Positions 26,087 through 32,791 of a DNA stretch of 49,897 bases are shown here, one piece after another. The notes below the pieces were generated by a model. It had not been told where the DNA came from. It worked only from the letters and a program-made list of their open reading frames with translations, and ran no database searches. This stretch comes from an uncultured Pseudomonadota bacterium (GTDB lineage Bacteria > Myxococcota_A > UBA796 > SXON01), in the NCBI GenBank assembly GCA_903844155.1, contig CAIMSU010000190.1:1-49897 (forward strand), read 5' to 3'. The stretch's first letter is position 1, and each line of letters begins with the position of its first letter. Position numbers and translations under genes: made by a program.

Positions 26087-26905
26087 TCAGTAGCTGTGGG
26101 CAGCGGTTGGGAACGCCCCGCTCTTGACGTCCGCCACGTAGCGGCGCATTGCGTCGGTGATCGTGCCTTCAAGGTCCGCGTAGCGCTTCAGGAACTTCGG
26201 CGAAAATTGCTGGTTCATCCCGAGCATGTCGGTGCACACCAGGACCTGCCCGTCGCACTCCGGCCCGGCGCCGATCCCGATGGTGGGGATGCCAAGCTCG
26301 GCCGTGATCTGGGCCGCGAGCGCCGGTGGTACCATCTCCAGCACGATCGCGAAGGCGCCCGCTTCGGCCACCGCGTGCGCGTCCCTCACGATCCGCTCGG
26401 CGTTCTCCTTCTCGCGACCCTGCACCCGAAACCCGCCGAACGCGTTGACCGACTGCGGCGTCAACCCCACGTGCCCGACGACCGGGATGCCCGCCTCCAC
26501 GATCGCCGCGATCGCCGGCGCAGAGCGAACCCCGCCCTCCAACTTCACGCTTTGTGCCTTGCCTTTCTGCACCAGCACGCCCGCCGTCTGCATCGCCTGC
26601 GCCACGCTCACCTGGTAGCTCATGAACGGCATATCCACCGTCAAATGCGCGTTTTCGAGGCCCGCCGCCACGCAGCGCCCATGGTAGGCCATGTCCTCGA
26701 CCGTGACGGAGAGCGTGTCCGACCCGCCCTGGATCACCATGCCGAGCGAGTCGCCGACCAGCACCATGTCGACGCCCGCCATGTCGACGAGCCGCGCCAT
26801 CTGCGCGTCGTACGCCGTCACCATCACGATCCGCCCGCCCTTGTCTCCCGCGTCGTAGGCGGCTTTTTTGCGACGAAGCAGGTCGGGAGCGGTCAGACGG
26901 GACAA
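26087..26905 (-). CDS. panB: 3-methyl-2-oxobutanoate hydroxymethyltransferase
   Basis: PanB makes ketopantoate from alpha-ketoisovalerate and methylene-tetrahydrofolate. The 272-residue protein shows VMVTAYDAQMARLVD, VDMVLVGDSLGMVIQG (metal-binding Asp), AVKLE-type QSVKLEGG, PVVGHVGLTPQSVNAFGGF, IVLEMVPPALA and GIGAGPECDGQVLVCTDMLGM, all standard for the family. TTG 26905 is used as start; no ATG or GTG lies in frame just upstream, and the protein would be N-terminally normal from here. It leads the operon panB-panC-24884-(24735)-24333. Confidence 0.96.
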   Translation of the reverse strand: MSRLTAPDLLRRKKAAYDAGDKGGRIVMVTAYDAQMARLVDMAGVDMVLVGDSLGMVIQGGSDTLSVTVEDMAYHGRCVAAGLENAHLTVDMPFMSYQVSVAQAMQTAGVLVQKGKAQSVKLEGGVRSAPAIAAIVEAGIPVVGHVGLTPQSVNAFGGFRVQGREKENAERIVRDAHAVAEAGAFAIVLEMVPPALAAQITAELGIPTIGIGAGPECDGQVLVCTDMLGMNQQFSPKFLKRYADLEGTITDAMRRYVADVKSGAFPTAAHSY

Positions 26906-27122
26906 ACGGCGTCTCGGGTTGCGGGCTCACCGTCGGCGAACCAGTGGGGAGCGACGCTATCAAGAAACGCGGGGCACCGGTACTGCGCGGGTCTCCCATC
27001 CCCCTTTGGGCGGCTCCGCAAGCCCGGGGCCCGGTCGCCCGACAACGGTGGAACGCCGCACAACCCCGCAGCGCCCGCCTGCACCTGCGGACCCACCCCT
27101 CGGCCCGGCTCCACTAGTTACA

Positions 27123-27180
27123 ATGCTCATCCCGTAATTCATAACATCGTGATACGAATTACACCCCGAACATTGTCACA
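27123..27180 (-). repeat. Copy A of a dispersed 58-nt element (promoter-like boxes plus conserved-loop hairpin)
   Basis: Read on the minus strand: TGTGACA, 15 nt, TTCGTATC, 10 nt, GAATTACGGGATGAGCAT. The same three blocks with exactly the same spacing occur in copy B (32074-32131, plus strand). The last block forms a loop of 15 nt (ATTACGGGATGAGCA) closed by GTTATGA and TTGTAAC, which pair over 7 positions if two G-U pairs are allowed. TGTGACA and CGTATC are 17 nt apart, like -35/-10 boxes. The rest of the gap 26906-27186 upstream of panB shows nothing else I can name. Confidence 0.55.
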
Positions 27181-27186
27181 GCGGTC

Positions 27187-28227
27187 TCATCCACCCGCAG
27201 CCGGAGCGTGATCCGCGCTCCCCCCCACCCCAAGCAGCGCGATCGCACCGAGGACGACGCCCAGCCACAGCGTCGCCAGCCGGATCAGGAGCGCGCTGGC
27301 GAGGGCAGAGCCCGGGTCCAGGCCCGTCACCAGCCGCTTCGGAAGCTCGACGAGCACGCCGTCCGCGATGCCAAGCCCGCCGGGCGACGCGCCACCCGAC
27401 ACGGTCGCGAACGCGTAGAGGAACGTGCTGACGCCGAGCGTCGGATCAGCGCCAAAACCCTTGAGCACGCACCAGTACCCCACGCACTCGCCGCCCCACG
27501 CCACCATGCTCACGGCCACCGTGATCACGAGCGGCACCGGCGCCACGCAGATCCGCATCGCCGTGTACATCTCGATGAGGCGTCCGGCGATGCGGTCGAG
27601 CAGGGGGAGCCGGGCCATGGTGTTGAGGATGGCCATGGAGAGCGGTTCGCTGGCGAGGACGACCAGAAGGGCCGCGGTCATGCCGATGGGCACGAACACG
27701 TAGGAGGCCTTGTCCCCGGCGTAGGTGCTGACGGAGATGGCTGCCAGGACCAACGCCGCGATCCCGTCCGTCAGCCGCTCGGTGACCAGCGCGGGGATGG
27801 TGTGCGACATCGGCGTACCGGTGCGCTCCCGAACGAGCCAGGGCTTGAGCAATTCACCGACCTTGCCCGGCGAGATCACCATCGCCAGCCCGGAGCCGAA
27901 GATCGTGGCGTTCTCCTTCAGCGGGATCTTCACGCCGAGGCGACCGAGCAGGTACTGCCACTTCCAGAACCGCAGGCTGTAGTTCAGGAGCGTCAGCAGG
28001 ATCGCCGGCACGTAGTAGAGCCAGTTGAACCTGCCAAGTGCGTCGCGCACGGAGCCGATGCCAACGTACACGCTCCCGCCCGCGTAGAGCAGCGCGGCGA
28101 TCGCGATGCCCCAGGCAAGCCACCGCCGGAAGCGCGAGACGAGGTTGCCGGCGGAGGGCGGTTCGGGGGCCGCAGCGCGGGCCTCGCCGGGGCGGGAGGT
28201 CATGGGGCTGGGGTCGCTGATGATCAC
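27187..28227 (-). CDS. Flippase-like integral membrane protein (lysylphosphatidylglycerol synthase TM family)
   Basis: A 346-residue multi-pass membrane protein. The motifs FGSGLAMVISPGKVGELLKPWLVRE, ALVTERLTDGIAALVLA and ATVSGGASPGGLGIADG are characteristic of the LPG_synthase_TM/UPF0104 flippase-like family, with about eight hydrophobic segments. Members move lipids or lipid-linked sugars. GTG 28227 overlaps the stop of the upstream glycosyltransferase (GTGA); an ATG 8 codons further in is an alternative. Coupling to a GT-C type transferase fits a lipid-linked glycan pathway, but no substrate can be inferred. Confidence 0.85.
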   Translation of the reverse strand: MIISDPSPMTSRPGEARAAAPEPPSAGNLVSRFRRWLAWGIAIAALLYAGGSVYVGIGSVRDALGRFNWLYYVPAILLTLLNYSLRFWKWQYLLGRLGVKIPLKENATIFGSGLAMVISPGKVGELLKPWLVRERTGTPMSHTIPALVTERLTDGIAALVLAAISVSTYAGDKASYVFVPIGMTAALLVVLASEPLSMAILNTMARLPLLDRIAGRLIEMYTAMRICVAPVPLVITVAVSMVAWGGECVGYWCVLKGFGADPTLGVSTFLYAFATVSGGASPGGLGIADGVLVELPKRLVTGLDPGSALASALLIRLATLWLGVVLGAIALLGVGGSADHAPAAGG

Positions 28228-29972
28228 GGGGCGTCCGGGGTGGGGAGGCAGTGGTAGAGCATGAGGTTCGGGCCCATCCGCGCGAAGGACGAATAGTCGG
28301 CGTGCGGCAAGTAGAGGGCGTCCTGTTGGTCGAGGATCTCGGGGGCGGCGGGCGGAGGGCCGCTGTCGACGGTCGCGGCCTCGTCATGGACGGGATCGCA
28401 GCTCTGGGCGTAGGCGCGCACGGACTCGGGCACGCTCGCGTAGAACGTCAGCGGGTAGTCTTCGAGTTCAAGCCAGAAGTCGGCGGGGACGAGGTCGCCA
28501 GGAGTGCCGGAGCGGGCGAGATCGTCGGCGTCGACCTGGCTGACAAAGTCGATGCCGGGCTTTCGGATGTAGAGCACGTCGTACATGGGGCGCGCGGGGT
28601 TGTACCATTTCAGGTCGTCGGGCTTGCGAAAGCCGGCGGCGTCGGCTCGACCGGCCTTCGCAACGTACTCGCGGGTCTGGTTGGCGACGTTGCGCTGGAG
28701 CATCGGCGCGCCGGTGTAGGCGCCCGCGTGGACGATGACGGCGTTCGTCGGTACGTTCTGCTCGATCCACCGGCCCATCGAATCGCGCGTGTCGCCGGCC
28801 GCGACGAGGCGGTCGGTTAGGATGGACCAGGTGAGGGGGTTGATGAGGAGGACCGCAAACCAGGTCCCGCGGATGACGCCGGGAAGGGCCGACAATCCTC
28901 GAACCACGACGATTGGTTGCTCTGCGACCCACCACCCCAATGCCACGCACAGGAACGGCAGCAGCGGCAACGCGTAGCGGAAGAACGCCGTTTCACCGCG
29001 GCCTATCACGACGTAGTACGCGACGGGGAAGGAGAGCCATAGCAGCGCCCGTCCCCGCTGTCCGGGCCAGATCGGCCAGGTGAACGCCGCGACCCCGGCG
29101 AGCAGGACGAAGACCAGCCCCTGCGTTTCCCGCAGCGTCTCCAGATGCCTGCTCCACCCCCTCCCCACGTCCACGTACTGCCCGTCCGCGAGGTGCGCGG
29201 ATTCGTACTGAAAATCCTTCCAGAACGTCGGAAAGTCAAGCACGACGTAGGGGCTGCCCAGCAGAAACGCCCCCACCATCACGCACGCTGCCATCGCCAC
29301 ACGAGTGGCCATCGCCCGACCATCCCTCGCCCGTCCCCCCGCGGATGCTCCGAGCACTCCCGCGATCGCCACCGGCAGCGCGACCAACCCCGCCGTGTAC
29401 TTGGTGCTCGTCGCCAGCCCGCCGATCGCGGCCGCGACGAGCAGATCGCGCATCCGGCCCGACGTCATTGCCCGCTCGCACAACATCACCGTCGCGATCA
29501 CGAGCGTGACCATCATCGTGTCCGTCACCCCGAAGTGGCTGTCTCGCACGGCGAGCATCGACACCGCAAAAAGTGCTGCTGTCACCAGCCTTCCCGGCGC
29601 ACGCAGGAGCAGCGCGACGCCCAGCGTCCCCATGAACGCGCTCCAGGCGCGCATCCACAGCCGGAACGAGACCGCCCCGTCAAAGAACGAGCGAAGGAAG
29701 TCGTCTTTGGACGCGTACTCGCCCGTCATCCGGCCGACCGCGTACTTCACCCCAAAGAGCCCGAACACCACGTACTTGTGCAACGTGGGGTAGTTGAAGG
29801 AGTGCGGGTCGAGGTCGCCGGTCCCGAACTTCATCGCCTGGAACGCGATGGTCAGCTCGTCGGGCCGCGCCTCCGCCATCGGCAGGCCAAAGCCCAGGCC
29901 CGAAAAACGCAGCGTCGCGGCCACGAGCACGATCAGGCAGGCAGCGACGGTCTCGGCGCGGGTGGACACCAC
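28224..29972 (-). CDS. Membrane glycosyltransferase, GT-C/PMT (family 39-like)
   Basis: About 582 residues with ten or more membrane helices. The N-terminal loop ARPDELTIAFQAMKF contains the acidic DE pair expected in the catalytic loop of polyprenyl-phosphate-sugar-dependent transferases. SFNYPTLHKYVVFGLFG follows in the first periplasmic loop region, as in ArnT/PMT proteins. The C-terminal ~150 residues are a soluble domain. The start is placed at GTG 29972 (TTG 29984 and GTG 29969 also possible); the frame is open upstream but overlaps the divergent GAF gene. It is coupled to the flippase-like gene downstream. Confidence 0.82.
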   Translation of the reverse strand: MVSTRAETVAACLIVLVAATLRFSGLGFGLPMAEARPDELTIAFQAMKFGTGDLDPHSFNYPTLHKYVVFGLFGVKYAVGRMTGEYASKDDFLRSFFDGAVSFRLWMRAWSAFMGTLGVALLLRAPGRLVTAALFAVSMLAVRDSHFGVTDTMMVTLVIATVMLCERAMTSGRMRDLLVAAAIGGLATSTKYTAGLVALPVAIAGVLGASAGGRARDGRAMATRVAMAACVMVGAFLLGSPYVVLDFPTFWKDFQYESAHLADGQYVDVGRGWSRHLETLRETQGLVFVLLAGVAAFTWPIWPGQRGRALLWLSFPVAYYVVIGRGETAFFRYALPLLPFLCVALGWWVAEQPIVVVRGLSALPGVIRGTWFAVLLINPLTWSILTDRLVAAGDTRDSMGRWIEQNVPTNAVIVHAGAYTGAPMLQRNVANQTREYVAKAGRADAAGFRKPDDLKWYNPARPMYDVLYIRKPGIDFVSQVDADDLARSGTPGDLVPADFWLELEDYPLTFYASVPESVRAYAQSCDPVHDEAATVDSGPPPAAPEILDQQDALYLPHADYSSFARMGPNLMLYHCLPTPDAP

Positions 29973-30005
29973 CAGACGTATCAAGAAACCGGTTAGGTGC
30001 GGCCC

Positions 30006-30890
30006 ATGCCCGGCTTTCGGATCACCTCGCGGACGATGGGCTCGATGGAGGTCTCCGCGTCCAACTGGCCCGTCGCGCTCGGCCAGGGCCTGGAGCGGCT
30101 CGGCGTCGTCGCCAGCATGGATCGCATCGCGTGTGAGGCACACCCAAACGGCACGATCCTCGTGCGCGACGTGCGGAGTGGGCAGGGTTTTGTCGTGCAG
30201 CCGCTCGACGAGGCGATCGGGAGGCCGGAGGAGACGGACGAGGTCTTCGCGGCGCCCGAGGACACGGACGACGGCGTGACGGCCGAGGAGAAGGTGATCC
30301 TCCCGTTGATCGCCGAGATCAGCCGGGCACCCTCCCGCAGCATCGCGATCCAGCGCGCACTGGACGCCGCCGTGGCGATGGTGCCGTCCGAGAGCGGCGC
30401 CGTACTGCTCACCGAGCGCGGCGGGGCGATGGGCTTTGCGGGCGCGTTCGGACCCGAGGCGCACAAGCTACGGGACGTGGCGATCCCGGCCGGCAGCGGC
30501 TTCGCTGGCTTTTGCGCCTCGCGGCTGACGGCGCTCTCGATCAAGGACCCCTACGCCGACTCCCGCTTCTGCCGCGCCATCGACGACATCACCGGGTACA
30601 AGACCCACAGCCTGCTCGTGGTCCCGGTAGCCCTGGACCGTCGCGGATTCGGGTGCCTGGAGCTGGTGAACGTGATCGGGCACGCTGGCTTTGACGACGG
30701 CGCGATGGCGCTCCTCTCCCAGGTCGCGACCGCCCTGGCGGTCCGACTCGCCGCATCCGGGCCCGTTGAGCCGAGCATGGAGCGACCGAAGGCGAGCCGC
30801 GTCCCCGCGTCGTCGCCGAGCCCGCTGGCGTCGATGCGACCGAAGGGAGAAACCCCGCGTTCGTCCAAGGCGAACGACAAACCCGAGTGA
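30006..30890 (+). CDS. GAF domain protein
   Basis: About 294 residues. The region of about residues 95-250 (VILPLIAEISRAPSRSIAIQ ... AAVAMVPSESGAVLLTERGG ... SLLVVPVALDRRGFGCLELVN) is a GAF ligand-sensing domain. The N-terminal ~90 residues include LVRDVRSGQGFVVQPLDEA and are not recognised; the Ser/Pro/Lys-rich C-terminus (about 250-294) is probably disordered. No output domain (kinase, cyclase, HTH) is attached, so it likely signals through a partner. ATG 30006 has GGTG about 6 nt upstream; an in-frame GTG at 29997 is possible. The stop overlaps the start of the next glycosyltransferase gene (GTGA). Confidence 0.85.
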   Translation: MPGFRITSRTMGSMEVSASNWPVALGQGLERLGVVASMDRIACEAHPNGTILVRDVRSGQGFVVQPLDEAIGRPEETDEVFAAPEDTDDGVTAEEKVILPLIAEISRAPSRSIAIQRALDAAVAMVPSESGAVLLTERGGAMGFAGAFGPEAHKLRDVAIPAGSGFAGFCASRLTALSIKDPYADSRFCRAIDDITGYKTHSLLVVPVALDRRGFGCLELVNVIGHAGFDDGAMALLSQVATALAVRLAASGPVEPSMERPKASRVPASSPSPLASMRPKGETPRSSKANDKPE

Positions 30891-32791
30891 ACGAGGACGC
30901 GGTACGGGCCGCGTTGCAGGCGCTCGCCCTGCCAGCGCTCGTCACTTCGGCGGTAGGGTGGCGGGATCGCCGGTTGAACCTGCCCTCCCCCGCGTGGGGG
31001 CTCGGCGTCCTGCTCGCGTGGTTGCAGGTCGGCGCGATGGGAATGCTGGCGACGGGGACGCTGTACCCGGCGTCGGTGTTGGGGTGGCTCGTACTCGGAG
31101 TCGCAGCGCTCGACCGACTCGGGCGTCCGTACGCCCCTCCACCCGGCGCAGCCCCACCACCGGCCTCGGCCAGCACGCGGGCCTCCATCGTCGCCTGGTT
31201 CGGGGTTTGCCTGCTCAGCTTTGCCCTTCTCGCCATGGCCGCCGTCCCGCCCTGGTACCGCGACGAGATGGTCTACCACCTCGCCCTCCCCCAGCAGTTC
31301 GTGGCCGCGCACGCCTACACCCACCCGGACGACAACATCTTTGCCAGCTTTCCCCTCGGCTGGGAGAGCATCGTCGCCGCTGCGATGGCGCTCGGCGTGG
31401 AGAACCCCCGCGAGCTGGGCGCGTGGGTCACCATCGCAGACGCCCTCGCCATCGCCGGGATCGCCGGGCAGCTTGGCGCGACGGCGCTCGGCAGGGCAAC
31501 CGCGGCGGGCGTGTTCCTGCTCATCCCAACCGTGTGGGAATTCGGGCCCTCGGCCTACGTCGAACCCTGGTTGATCCTGGTCATGCTGCTGGGCATCTCC
31601 GCGGTGATCCGCGTCGCGTCGTCGACACCGAACGGCGCGCCCGCGGGATCCGCGCGCGGGGGGCTGGTCGCGTGGGAGGTCGGCATCTGGGCCGGGTTCG
31701 CGGCGTCCGCGAAGTACCCCGGGCTCGTCATTGCAGCCGCGCTCGTCCTGGCGCTCCCGCGGGGCCGCCTGAGGGCCCTGGTGCCCGCGGTCCTCATCGG
31801 GGCGCCCTGCTACATCCGGAATGTCCTTGAGCGCGGGAACCCGGTTTTTCCGCTCGCGTTCGGGGTGTTCGGCGGCAGTGGCTGGGACGCCACGCGCGCC
31901 TGGGCCTACGGCGTGACCCTCGACGACTACGGCCAGGGCCGCTCGCTCCTTGACTACGTGCTCCTCGTCCCACGCCTGTTCCTCACACGCGACCTGAACA
32001 CCGGCTTCCAAGGCTCCATCGGCCCCGTCCTCGCCCTCGGCGCCTACGCGCTCGCCCGCGCCGCCTGGCCCCGTGTGACAGTCCTCCTCCCGCATTTCGT
32101 ATCCACGCGTGACGAATTACGGGATGAGCATCGTCACGCGGGGCTGGCATCGGCGCTGGTGATCGGGGCGATCGGCTGGACGGTCTGGTGGGCGTTGACG
32201 GTACAGCAGGTGCGATTCTGGCTGCCGGCTGCCGCGATACTGGCGGTTGGCGTTGGGTTGTTCGCGAGTCGGCCCGTGTGTGCGCTGCCGATCTGGATCG
32301 GCGCTTTTGCCTGGGGGTGGCTGCCGGATGGGATGCTCTGGAACCGGCAGGAGACGACGGCGTGGTGGGCGGGCGACGTCTCGCGGGAGACCCTTCGGGA
32401 CCACCTCCTCCCCGAATCCGCGCCCGTCTATCGGGACATCCCCACCCTCGTCCCGGAGGGCGAGACGGTCTGGCTGGTCTGGATGCGCGATTTCACCTGG
32501 GACTTTCCGCGCCCGTTTCGGGAGGACAGCGTGTTCGAGGGCTGGCGCCTGGAGACGGCGCTGGACGCAGACAAGCTCCCCACCGACGTCGACTTCCTGT
32601 TGGTGAACGAGCGCTTTTTCCTGACCGGCACCAATGCGGACTGGGACGCGACCCACACGCTCGTCGTGGGGCGTACCGAACGCCTGCGCGCGACGTGGGC
32701 CGAATGGCACGACCATGGTGACATCACGGAGATAAAGCGGTGGGGGAAGGTGGTCTTGTACGCGATCCACCCCCGCCCTGGCCCCGGTTGA
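30887..32791 (+). CDS. Large multi-pass membrane protein, probable GT-C glycosyltransferase
   Basis: A 634-residue protein with about ten to twelve membrane helices. The first large loop has AVPPWYRDEMVYHLALPQQF, an acidic DE pair and aromatic residues arranged as in GT-C transferases, then DDNIFASFPLGWESI. The C-terminal ~130 residues (after MLWNRQETTAWWAGDVS) are a soluble domain with DVDFLLVNERFF. GTG 30887 overlaps the GAF stop, so the GAF protein and this enzyme are likely co-expressed. Residues about 400-415 (FVSTRDELRDEHRH) are hydrophilic and are encoded by copy B of the dispersed element, which looks like an insertion into a loop between helices. Confidence 0.72.
   Translation: MNEDAVRAALQALALPALVTSAVGWRDRRLNLPSPAWGLGVLLAWLQVGAMGMLATGTLYPASVLGWLVLGVAALDRLGRPYAPPPGAAPPPASASTRASIVAWFGVCLLSFALLAMAAVPPWYRDEMVYHLALPQQFVAAHAYTHPDDNIFASFPLGWESIVAAAMALGVENPRELGAWVTIADALAIAGIAGQLGATALGRATAAGVFLLIPTVWEFGPSAYVEPWLILVMLLGISAVIRVASSTPNGAPAGSARGGLVAWEVGIWAGFAASAKYPGLVIAAALVLALPRGRLRALVPAVLIGAPCYIRNVLERGNPVFPLAFGVFGGSGWDATRAWAYGVTLDDYGQGRSLLDYVLLVPRLFLTRDLNTGFQGSIGPVLALGAYALARAAWPRVTVLLPHFVSTRDELRDEHRHAGLASALVIGAIGWTVWWALTVQQVRFWLPAAAILAVGVGLFASRPVCALPIWIGAFAWGWLPDGMLWNRQETTAWWAGDVSRETLRDHLLPESAPVYRDIPTLVPEGETVWLVWMRDFTWDFPRPFREDSVFEGWRLETALDADKLPTDVDFLLVNERFFLTGTNADWDATHTLVVGRTERLRATWAEWHDHGDITEIKRWGKVVLYAIHPRPGPG
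32074..32131 (+). repeat. Copy B of the dispersed 58-nt element, inside a coding region
   Basis: TGTGACA (32074-32080), TTCGTATC (32096-32103) and GAATTACGGGATGAGCAT (32114-32131) repeat the blocks of copy A at identical spacings of 15 and 10 nt. Here the 15-nt loop is closed by a perfect 10-bp stem, CGCGTGACGA/TCGTCACGCG, different in sequence from copy A's stem. It lies in frame within the membrane protein gene at 30887 and on the same strand. Confidence 0.6.

Follow-up and report, generated by a model that had tools for sequence, protein, structure and literature searches.

Two short stretches in a 49,897-nt window of DNA from an uncultured bacterium (contig C190 of the draft genome G000, 8.13 Mb in 375 contigs) raise the question of what kind of sequence keeps three blocks at fixed distances while the bases between them differ. 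The pattern TGTGACA-N15-TTCGTATC-N10-GAATTACGGGATGAGCAT is present with 0 mismatches at 27123–27180 (minus strand, copy 1) and at 32074–32131 (plus strand, copy 2), and in 0/100 dinucleotide-shuffled sequences, bearing out the exact 15- and 10-nt spacing reported in a first-pass annotation. That annotation read the pair as a 58-nt, two-copy dispersed element, perhaps a promoter followed by a small structured RNA, in which a 15-nt loop was conserved and the stems closing it compensated for one another's changes. Its stem counts agree with the sequence: CGCGTGACGA and TCGTCACGCG pair without fault over 10 bp in copy 2, with the outer 3 pairs contributed by spacer and flank bases, and the short stem of copy 1 has 7 pairs, two of them G-U. 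The gene context that it gave, with one copy upstream of panB and the other in frame in a membrane-protein gene, is also correct. Copy 1 follows the LPG_synthase_TM stop codon by 7 nt and precedes panB by 211 nt, and copy 2 lies in the gene for a 634-aa membrane protein, where it translates to VTVLLPHFVSTRDELRDEHRH, an insert of 21 codons. A scan of the window against Rfam families gave no match above gathering score except a tRNA.

The repeat itself proved to be longer and more symmetrical than the three blocks suggest. Copies were found across G000 with part of the block pattern, and their alignment revealed a palindrome (GTNACAATNCTCATCCCGCATTTCGTATC, 5 variable bases, mirror): a 63-bp unit in which a 29-bp arm and a 5-nt variable spacer are followed by a second, inverted 29-bp arm, with a consensus layout of approximately GTNACAATNCTC-ATCCC-GCATTTCGTATC-N5-mirror. 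Both 58-nt stretches fall almost entirely inside such inverted repeats (Table 1); the 15-nt ‘loop’ belongs to one arm, and TTCGTATC forms the innermost part of the opposite arm. A covariance model (R1), built from the alignment of family copies (A1), located some 40 places in G000 (81 rows over both strands), and extension of the search to relatives, which the annotation had proposed as a check, located 10–13 copies in a sister species of the same genus (G001). The element is thus repeated, as claimed, but its unit is 63 bp and not 58 nt, and about 38 further copies accompany the two of the window in G000.

Table 1. Palindrome copies in the window, their arms and the neighbouring genes.
Feature	Positions	Strand	Details
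Copy 1, whole 63-bp palindrome	27117..27179	-	Intergenic; covariance model 63.3 bits, E 5.9e-13
Copy 1, first arm	27151..27179	-	B-like; GTGACAATGTTCGGGGTGTAATTCGTATC
Copy 1, second arm	27117..27145	-	A type; contains the 15-nt ‘loop’ ATTACGGGATGAGCA
Copy 2, whole 63-bp palindrome	32075..32137	+	In frame within gene 30887-32791; 70.3 bits, E 6.8e-15
Copy 2, first arm	32075..32103	+	A type; GTGACAGTCCTCCTCCCGCATTTCGTATC
Copy 2, second arm	32109..32137	+	Mixed A/B; GTGACGAATTACGGGATGAGCATCGTCAC
Copy 2 host gene	30887..32791	+	634-aa membrane protein; no Pfam match
LPG_synthase_TM gene (PF03706)	27187..28227	-	Upstream of copy 1; 3′ end abutting copy 1
panB, ketopantoate hydroxymethyltransferase (PF02548)	26087..26905	-	Downstream of copy 1

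Forty full 63-bp elements were extracted from G000 for analysis of arms, identity and folding. The arms are of two types, A (CTCmTCCCGCATTTCGTATC) and B (CTCGGCGTGCATTTCACCAC), combined as A-A in 19 elements and as A-B in 21; the chance of finding no B-B element among 40 is about 0.03, which hints weakly at a preference for the A-A and A-B pairings. Mean pairwise identity was 74%, and few pairs (10/780) reached 90% or more, so the copies are probably of differing ages. Within individual arms there is a weak symmetry (44% Watson-Crick matches across 12 possible pairs, compared with 16–23% for slid pairings), which may be a relic of their origin. It is perfect in one G001 copy (L086), where GTGACGATNCTC occurs four times in alternating orientation around three 5-bp spacers, but the inner 12-mer has decayed in the majority of copies. 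Elsewhere in G001 (L112, on contig C121), the end sequence of an element recurs after it as short tandem copies of GACTGTAACGGGGGC.

Comparison of sequences between genomes demonstrates that the copies form one family, lineage-specific and occurring as insertions. Three other species of the genus (G002, G003 and G004) had zero copies at E 0.5, and a covariance model that includes the G001 copies (R2) returned nothing in the taxonomic family beyond G000 and G001 at E 0.1. Among 379 genomes of the phylum, no genome besides these two was found at E 0.001, with search filters strict enough that diverged families may exist. Viral carriage was set aside, the core having no exact match in viral contigs. 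The status of the copies as insertions follows from the empty panB junction and from in-frame inserts in two protein genes. The junction between LPG_synthase_TM and panB is without the element in all four relatives (G001–G004), with a short spacer to panB in G002, G003 and G004 and a different, longer spacer in G001. In the 634-aa protein, the residues VTVLLPHFVSTRDELRDEHRH are missing from the G002 and G003 orthologues; the G001 orthologue has a diverged palindrome at the same place, encoding VTMLLPRIVTTRDDPREEHRH, and this insertion therefore most likely predates the split between G000 and G001. The other gene is a BluB-CobT fusion of G000, the linker of which holds GTMLLPHFASEGYEMQEEDRH; the fusion protein of G002 is without the insert. 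At this locus (G000:C344:17388–19232; L016, L128), a nitroreductase, presumably of BluB type, and a putative CobT are seemingly fused in one frame, and the linker between them holds the element. All of the in-gene copies (3/3) use the same reading frame.

From these comparisons the copies look mobile. One G001 copy between convergent genes (L091) has as its counterpart in G000 only one arm, itself decayed (L055/L085). A search for target-site duplications of 2–9 bp at seven boundary offsets gave no excess over re-paired flanks, except for a marginal 3-bp count of 4 at one of the offsets, where shuffles gave 0.9 on average and never more than 4. The patterns used to look for an autonomous parent in the draft assembly recognised no separated arm pair.

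Placement relative to genes was far from even. By gene calls made near the copies with a codon model built for this analysis, and not with a standard caller, the pooled elements of G000 and G001 are flanked by convergent genes in 17 cases, unidirectional genes in 14 and divergent genes in 5, and 4 lie inside genes, although one of these (L025) seems on inspection to lie between two genes. As many as 21 gene 3′ ends have an element no more than 12 nt away, and some elements adjoin two of them; the null for this, taken from the intergenic positions of one 50-kb window only, is 6%; the corresponding number of gene 5′ ends is 4, near the null of 7%. Nearly half of the intergenic copies have a stop codon no more than 12 nt away, and in 8 or 9 cases the element's first bases form part of that codon (TGA within GTGAC, TAA within GTAAC).

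Could the element nevertheless owe its conservation to RNA? The short hairpin that had been taken for a selected structure is rejected on the evidence of folding, family alignment and covariation. Its RNA folding z-scores in the two window copies, −0.6 and −0.8, are no better than those of shuffled sequence, and it formed in 0/40 lowest-energy folds (criterion, at least 5 short-hairpin pairs). The annotation was right that the element can fold: taken whole, copies 1 and 2 have z-scores of −5.4 and −3.6, and an intact A-A copy has −10.3, and 29/40 lowest-energy folds contained at least 10 pairs of the long hairpin. Nor do the stems compensate: across 77 distinct half-elements, covariation in the short helix was below that of shuffled data (0.181 compared with 0.215 ± 0.011), and position 3/27 runs against pairing, being mostly T-C in A arms and G-A in B arms. 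That the stems differ between copy 1 and copy 2 is best read as decay rather than compensation, and two weathered copies of a palindrome can mimic a hairpin RNA with compensating stems. The accompanying promoter, TGTGACA-N17-CGTATC, followed by a small RNA with the conserved loop, is scarcely credible. The blocks are exactly common to both window copies, but a single arm has TGTGACA as its outer end and CGTATC as its inner end, and these differ from one arm type to another (CGTTAC ends; B arms with ACCAC), the copies lie mostly downstream of genes and more often behind than before them, and a scan covering the sigma-70 type only found no sigma-70-like site in the region.

A selected structured RNA built on the long helix instead, acting as a 3′-end hairpin, terminator or mRNA stabilizer with adaptive sequence and position, would account for the strong folding of the whole element and for its strong bias toward positions immediately past stop codons or flanked by convergent genes, and is nonetheless unlikely. 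Although 80.5% of alignment cells in the long helix pair, covariation there was not above shuffles (40 copies), which argues that the symmetry of the palindrome reflects duplication of one arm and not pair-by-pair selection on RNA. Moreover, the folding energy of A-B copies is only half that of A-A copies (average −17.0 compared with −35.9 kcal/mol), two genes carry the element within their coding frame, and its absence from three other species of the genus means that it is not needed. A Rho-independent terminator was rejected, T-runs being rare behind the element, and no terminator-like site was found at either window copy. Less probable again is that the arms are paired sites of a DNA-binding protein or recombinase, holding alternating 12-bp motifs with 5-bp spacers. 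The arms do vary independently, as protein half-sites would, and L086 consists of just such a series; against this, the inner 12-mer has degraded in most copies, copies are found behind genes more than at promoters, and there are neither integron-type core sites at the ends nor a linked recombinase gene. Integron attC sites were likewise rejected, with RYYYAAC and GTTRRRY end core sites present in 0/47 elements.

The first-pass annotation knew of no described family like this one. No record of this particular family was found, but its kind is known from REPs, REPINs and RPEs. Most REPs lie where the neighbouring genes are unidirectional or convergent, at <20 bp from a 3′ end; their ends often give a stop codon, and both homo- and heterodimers occur (PMC3733652). 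The present element is like REPs and REPINs in its inverted pairs of units, its homo- and heterodimers, its placement at gene 3′ ends and between convergent genes, and its stop-supplying ends, and is unlike them in its 29-bp units, its fixed 5-nt spacer, and its lack of a tag and of a linked Y1_Tnp gene. REPs of the two super-families have GTAG or CGTC, unpaired, as a tag on one side of each unit; here GTAG or CTAC was present at 0/94 arm ends, and CGTC at 9/94 (GACG at 16/94), with no fixed place. In the REPIN system the repeats flank a RAYT, which is a Y1 tyrosine transposase. The two matches to Y1_Tnp (PF01797) in G000 had no element in the searched flanks, and the draft genome of G001, which does contain elements, had no match, so a RAYT-mobilized REPIN was rejected; a repeated transposase gene could, however, be missing from the assembly of G000, a draft in many contigs. 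The Y1_Tnp-like matches are at G000:C268:23798–24133 and G000:C113:46399–46722 (L117, L118), one of them below the Pfam cut-off. Because it has neither GTAG/CGTC tags nor a linked Y1_Tnp gene, the family is filed as REP/RPE-like, outside both tagged super-families.

RPEs, palindromes of 105–146 bp inserted in frame in Rickettsia genes (PMC2229807), offer a second comparison. Like RPEs, and like the WPEs of Wolbachia, the elements are dispersed palindromes with terminal inverted repeats, both intergenic and in frame (PMC2229807), and their in-frame inserts (634-aa gene; BluB-CobT linker) are absent from orthologues. Compared with RPEs by description, they differ in being 63 bp long, mostly intergenic and confined to one genus of another group. 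They also resemble bacterial MITEs (Correia/NEMIS, RUP, ERIC) in being short, palindromic, non-autonomous and present in many copies, and are unlike them in that no target-site duplication was detected, the ends have no TA, and a parent insertion sequence was not found.

Taken as sequence, then, the family is very probably a new, untagged, genus-restricted, non-autonomous dispersed palindromic repeat of the REP/RPE class. Copies would arise by transposition, the arms being acted on by an enzyme supplied in trans. Insertions that hit genes or promoters would mostly be lost, and the survivors would collect directly past stop codons or at tolerant in-frame spots, where a tolerated copy would add about 21 residues. 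Blocking of exonucleases and hindrance of read-through have been proposed for REPs; by analogy, a transcribed A-A copy would make a long 3′-end hairpin that may do either, any such effect on mRNA being a by-product. A fuller version, in which the element consists of four 12-bp motifs that alternate in orientation and are set apart by 5-bp spacers, is moved by a non-RAYT enzyme and owes its preference for the first bases past stop codons to targeting as well as selection, is possible if doubtful. The class and its behaviour are already known; what is added is a new family whose empty sites are of use. Together with the sister species, these sites make it possible to follow insertion, decay and in-frame coding use in an uncultured lineage for which the literature searched yielded no such family, and no REPIN, RAYT or REP families of myxobacteria.

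Weak matches were also seen in other genomes. One in G003 (L107, G003:C86:55714–55814; E 0.68) has the motifs GACGATCCT and AGGATCGTC in an internal-loop stem, and could be a diverged relative or a chance match. Another (E 0.002 with R1), in G060, which belongs to the same order, is to a different, tandem repeat (G060:C35:291–459 and C780; L087, L089, L108) with a period of approximately 51 nt and a palindromic core, TTTCGCAAC-N5-GTTGCGAAA, which shares its layout with the core of the 63-bp element.
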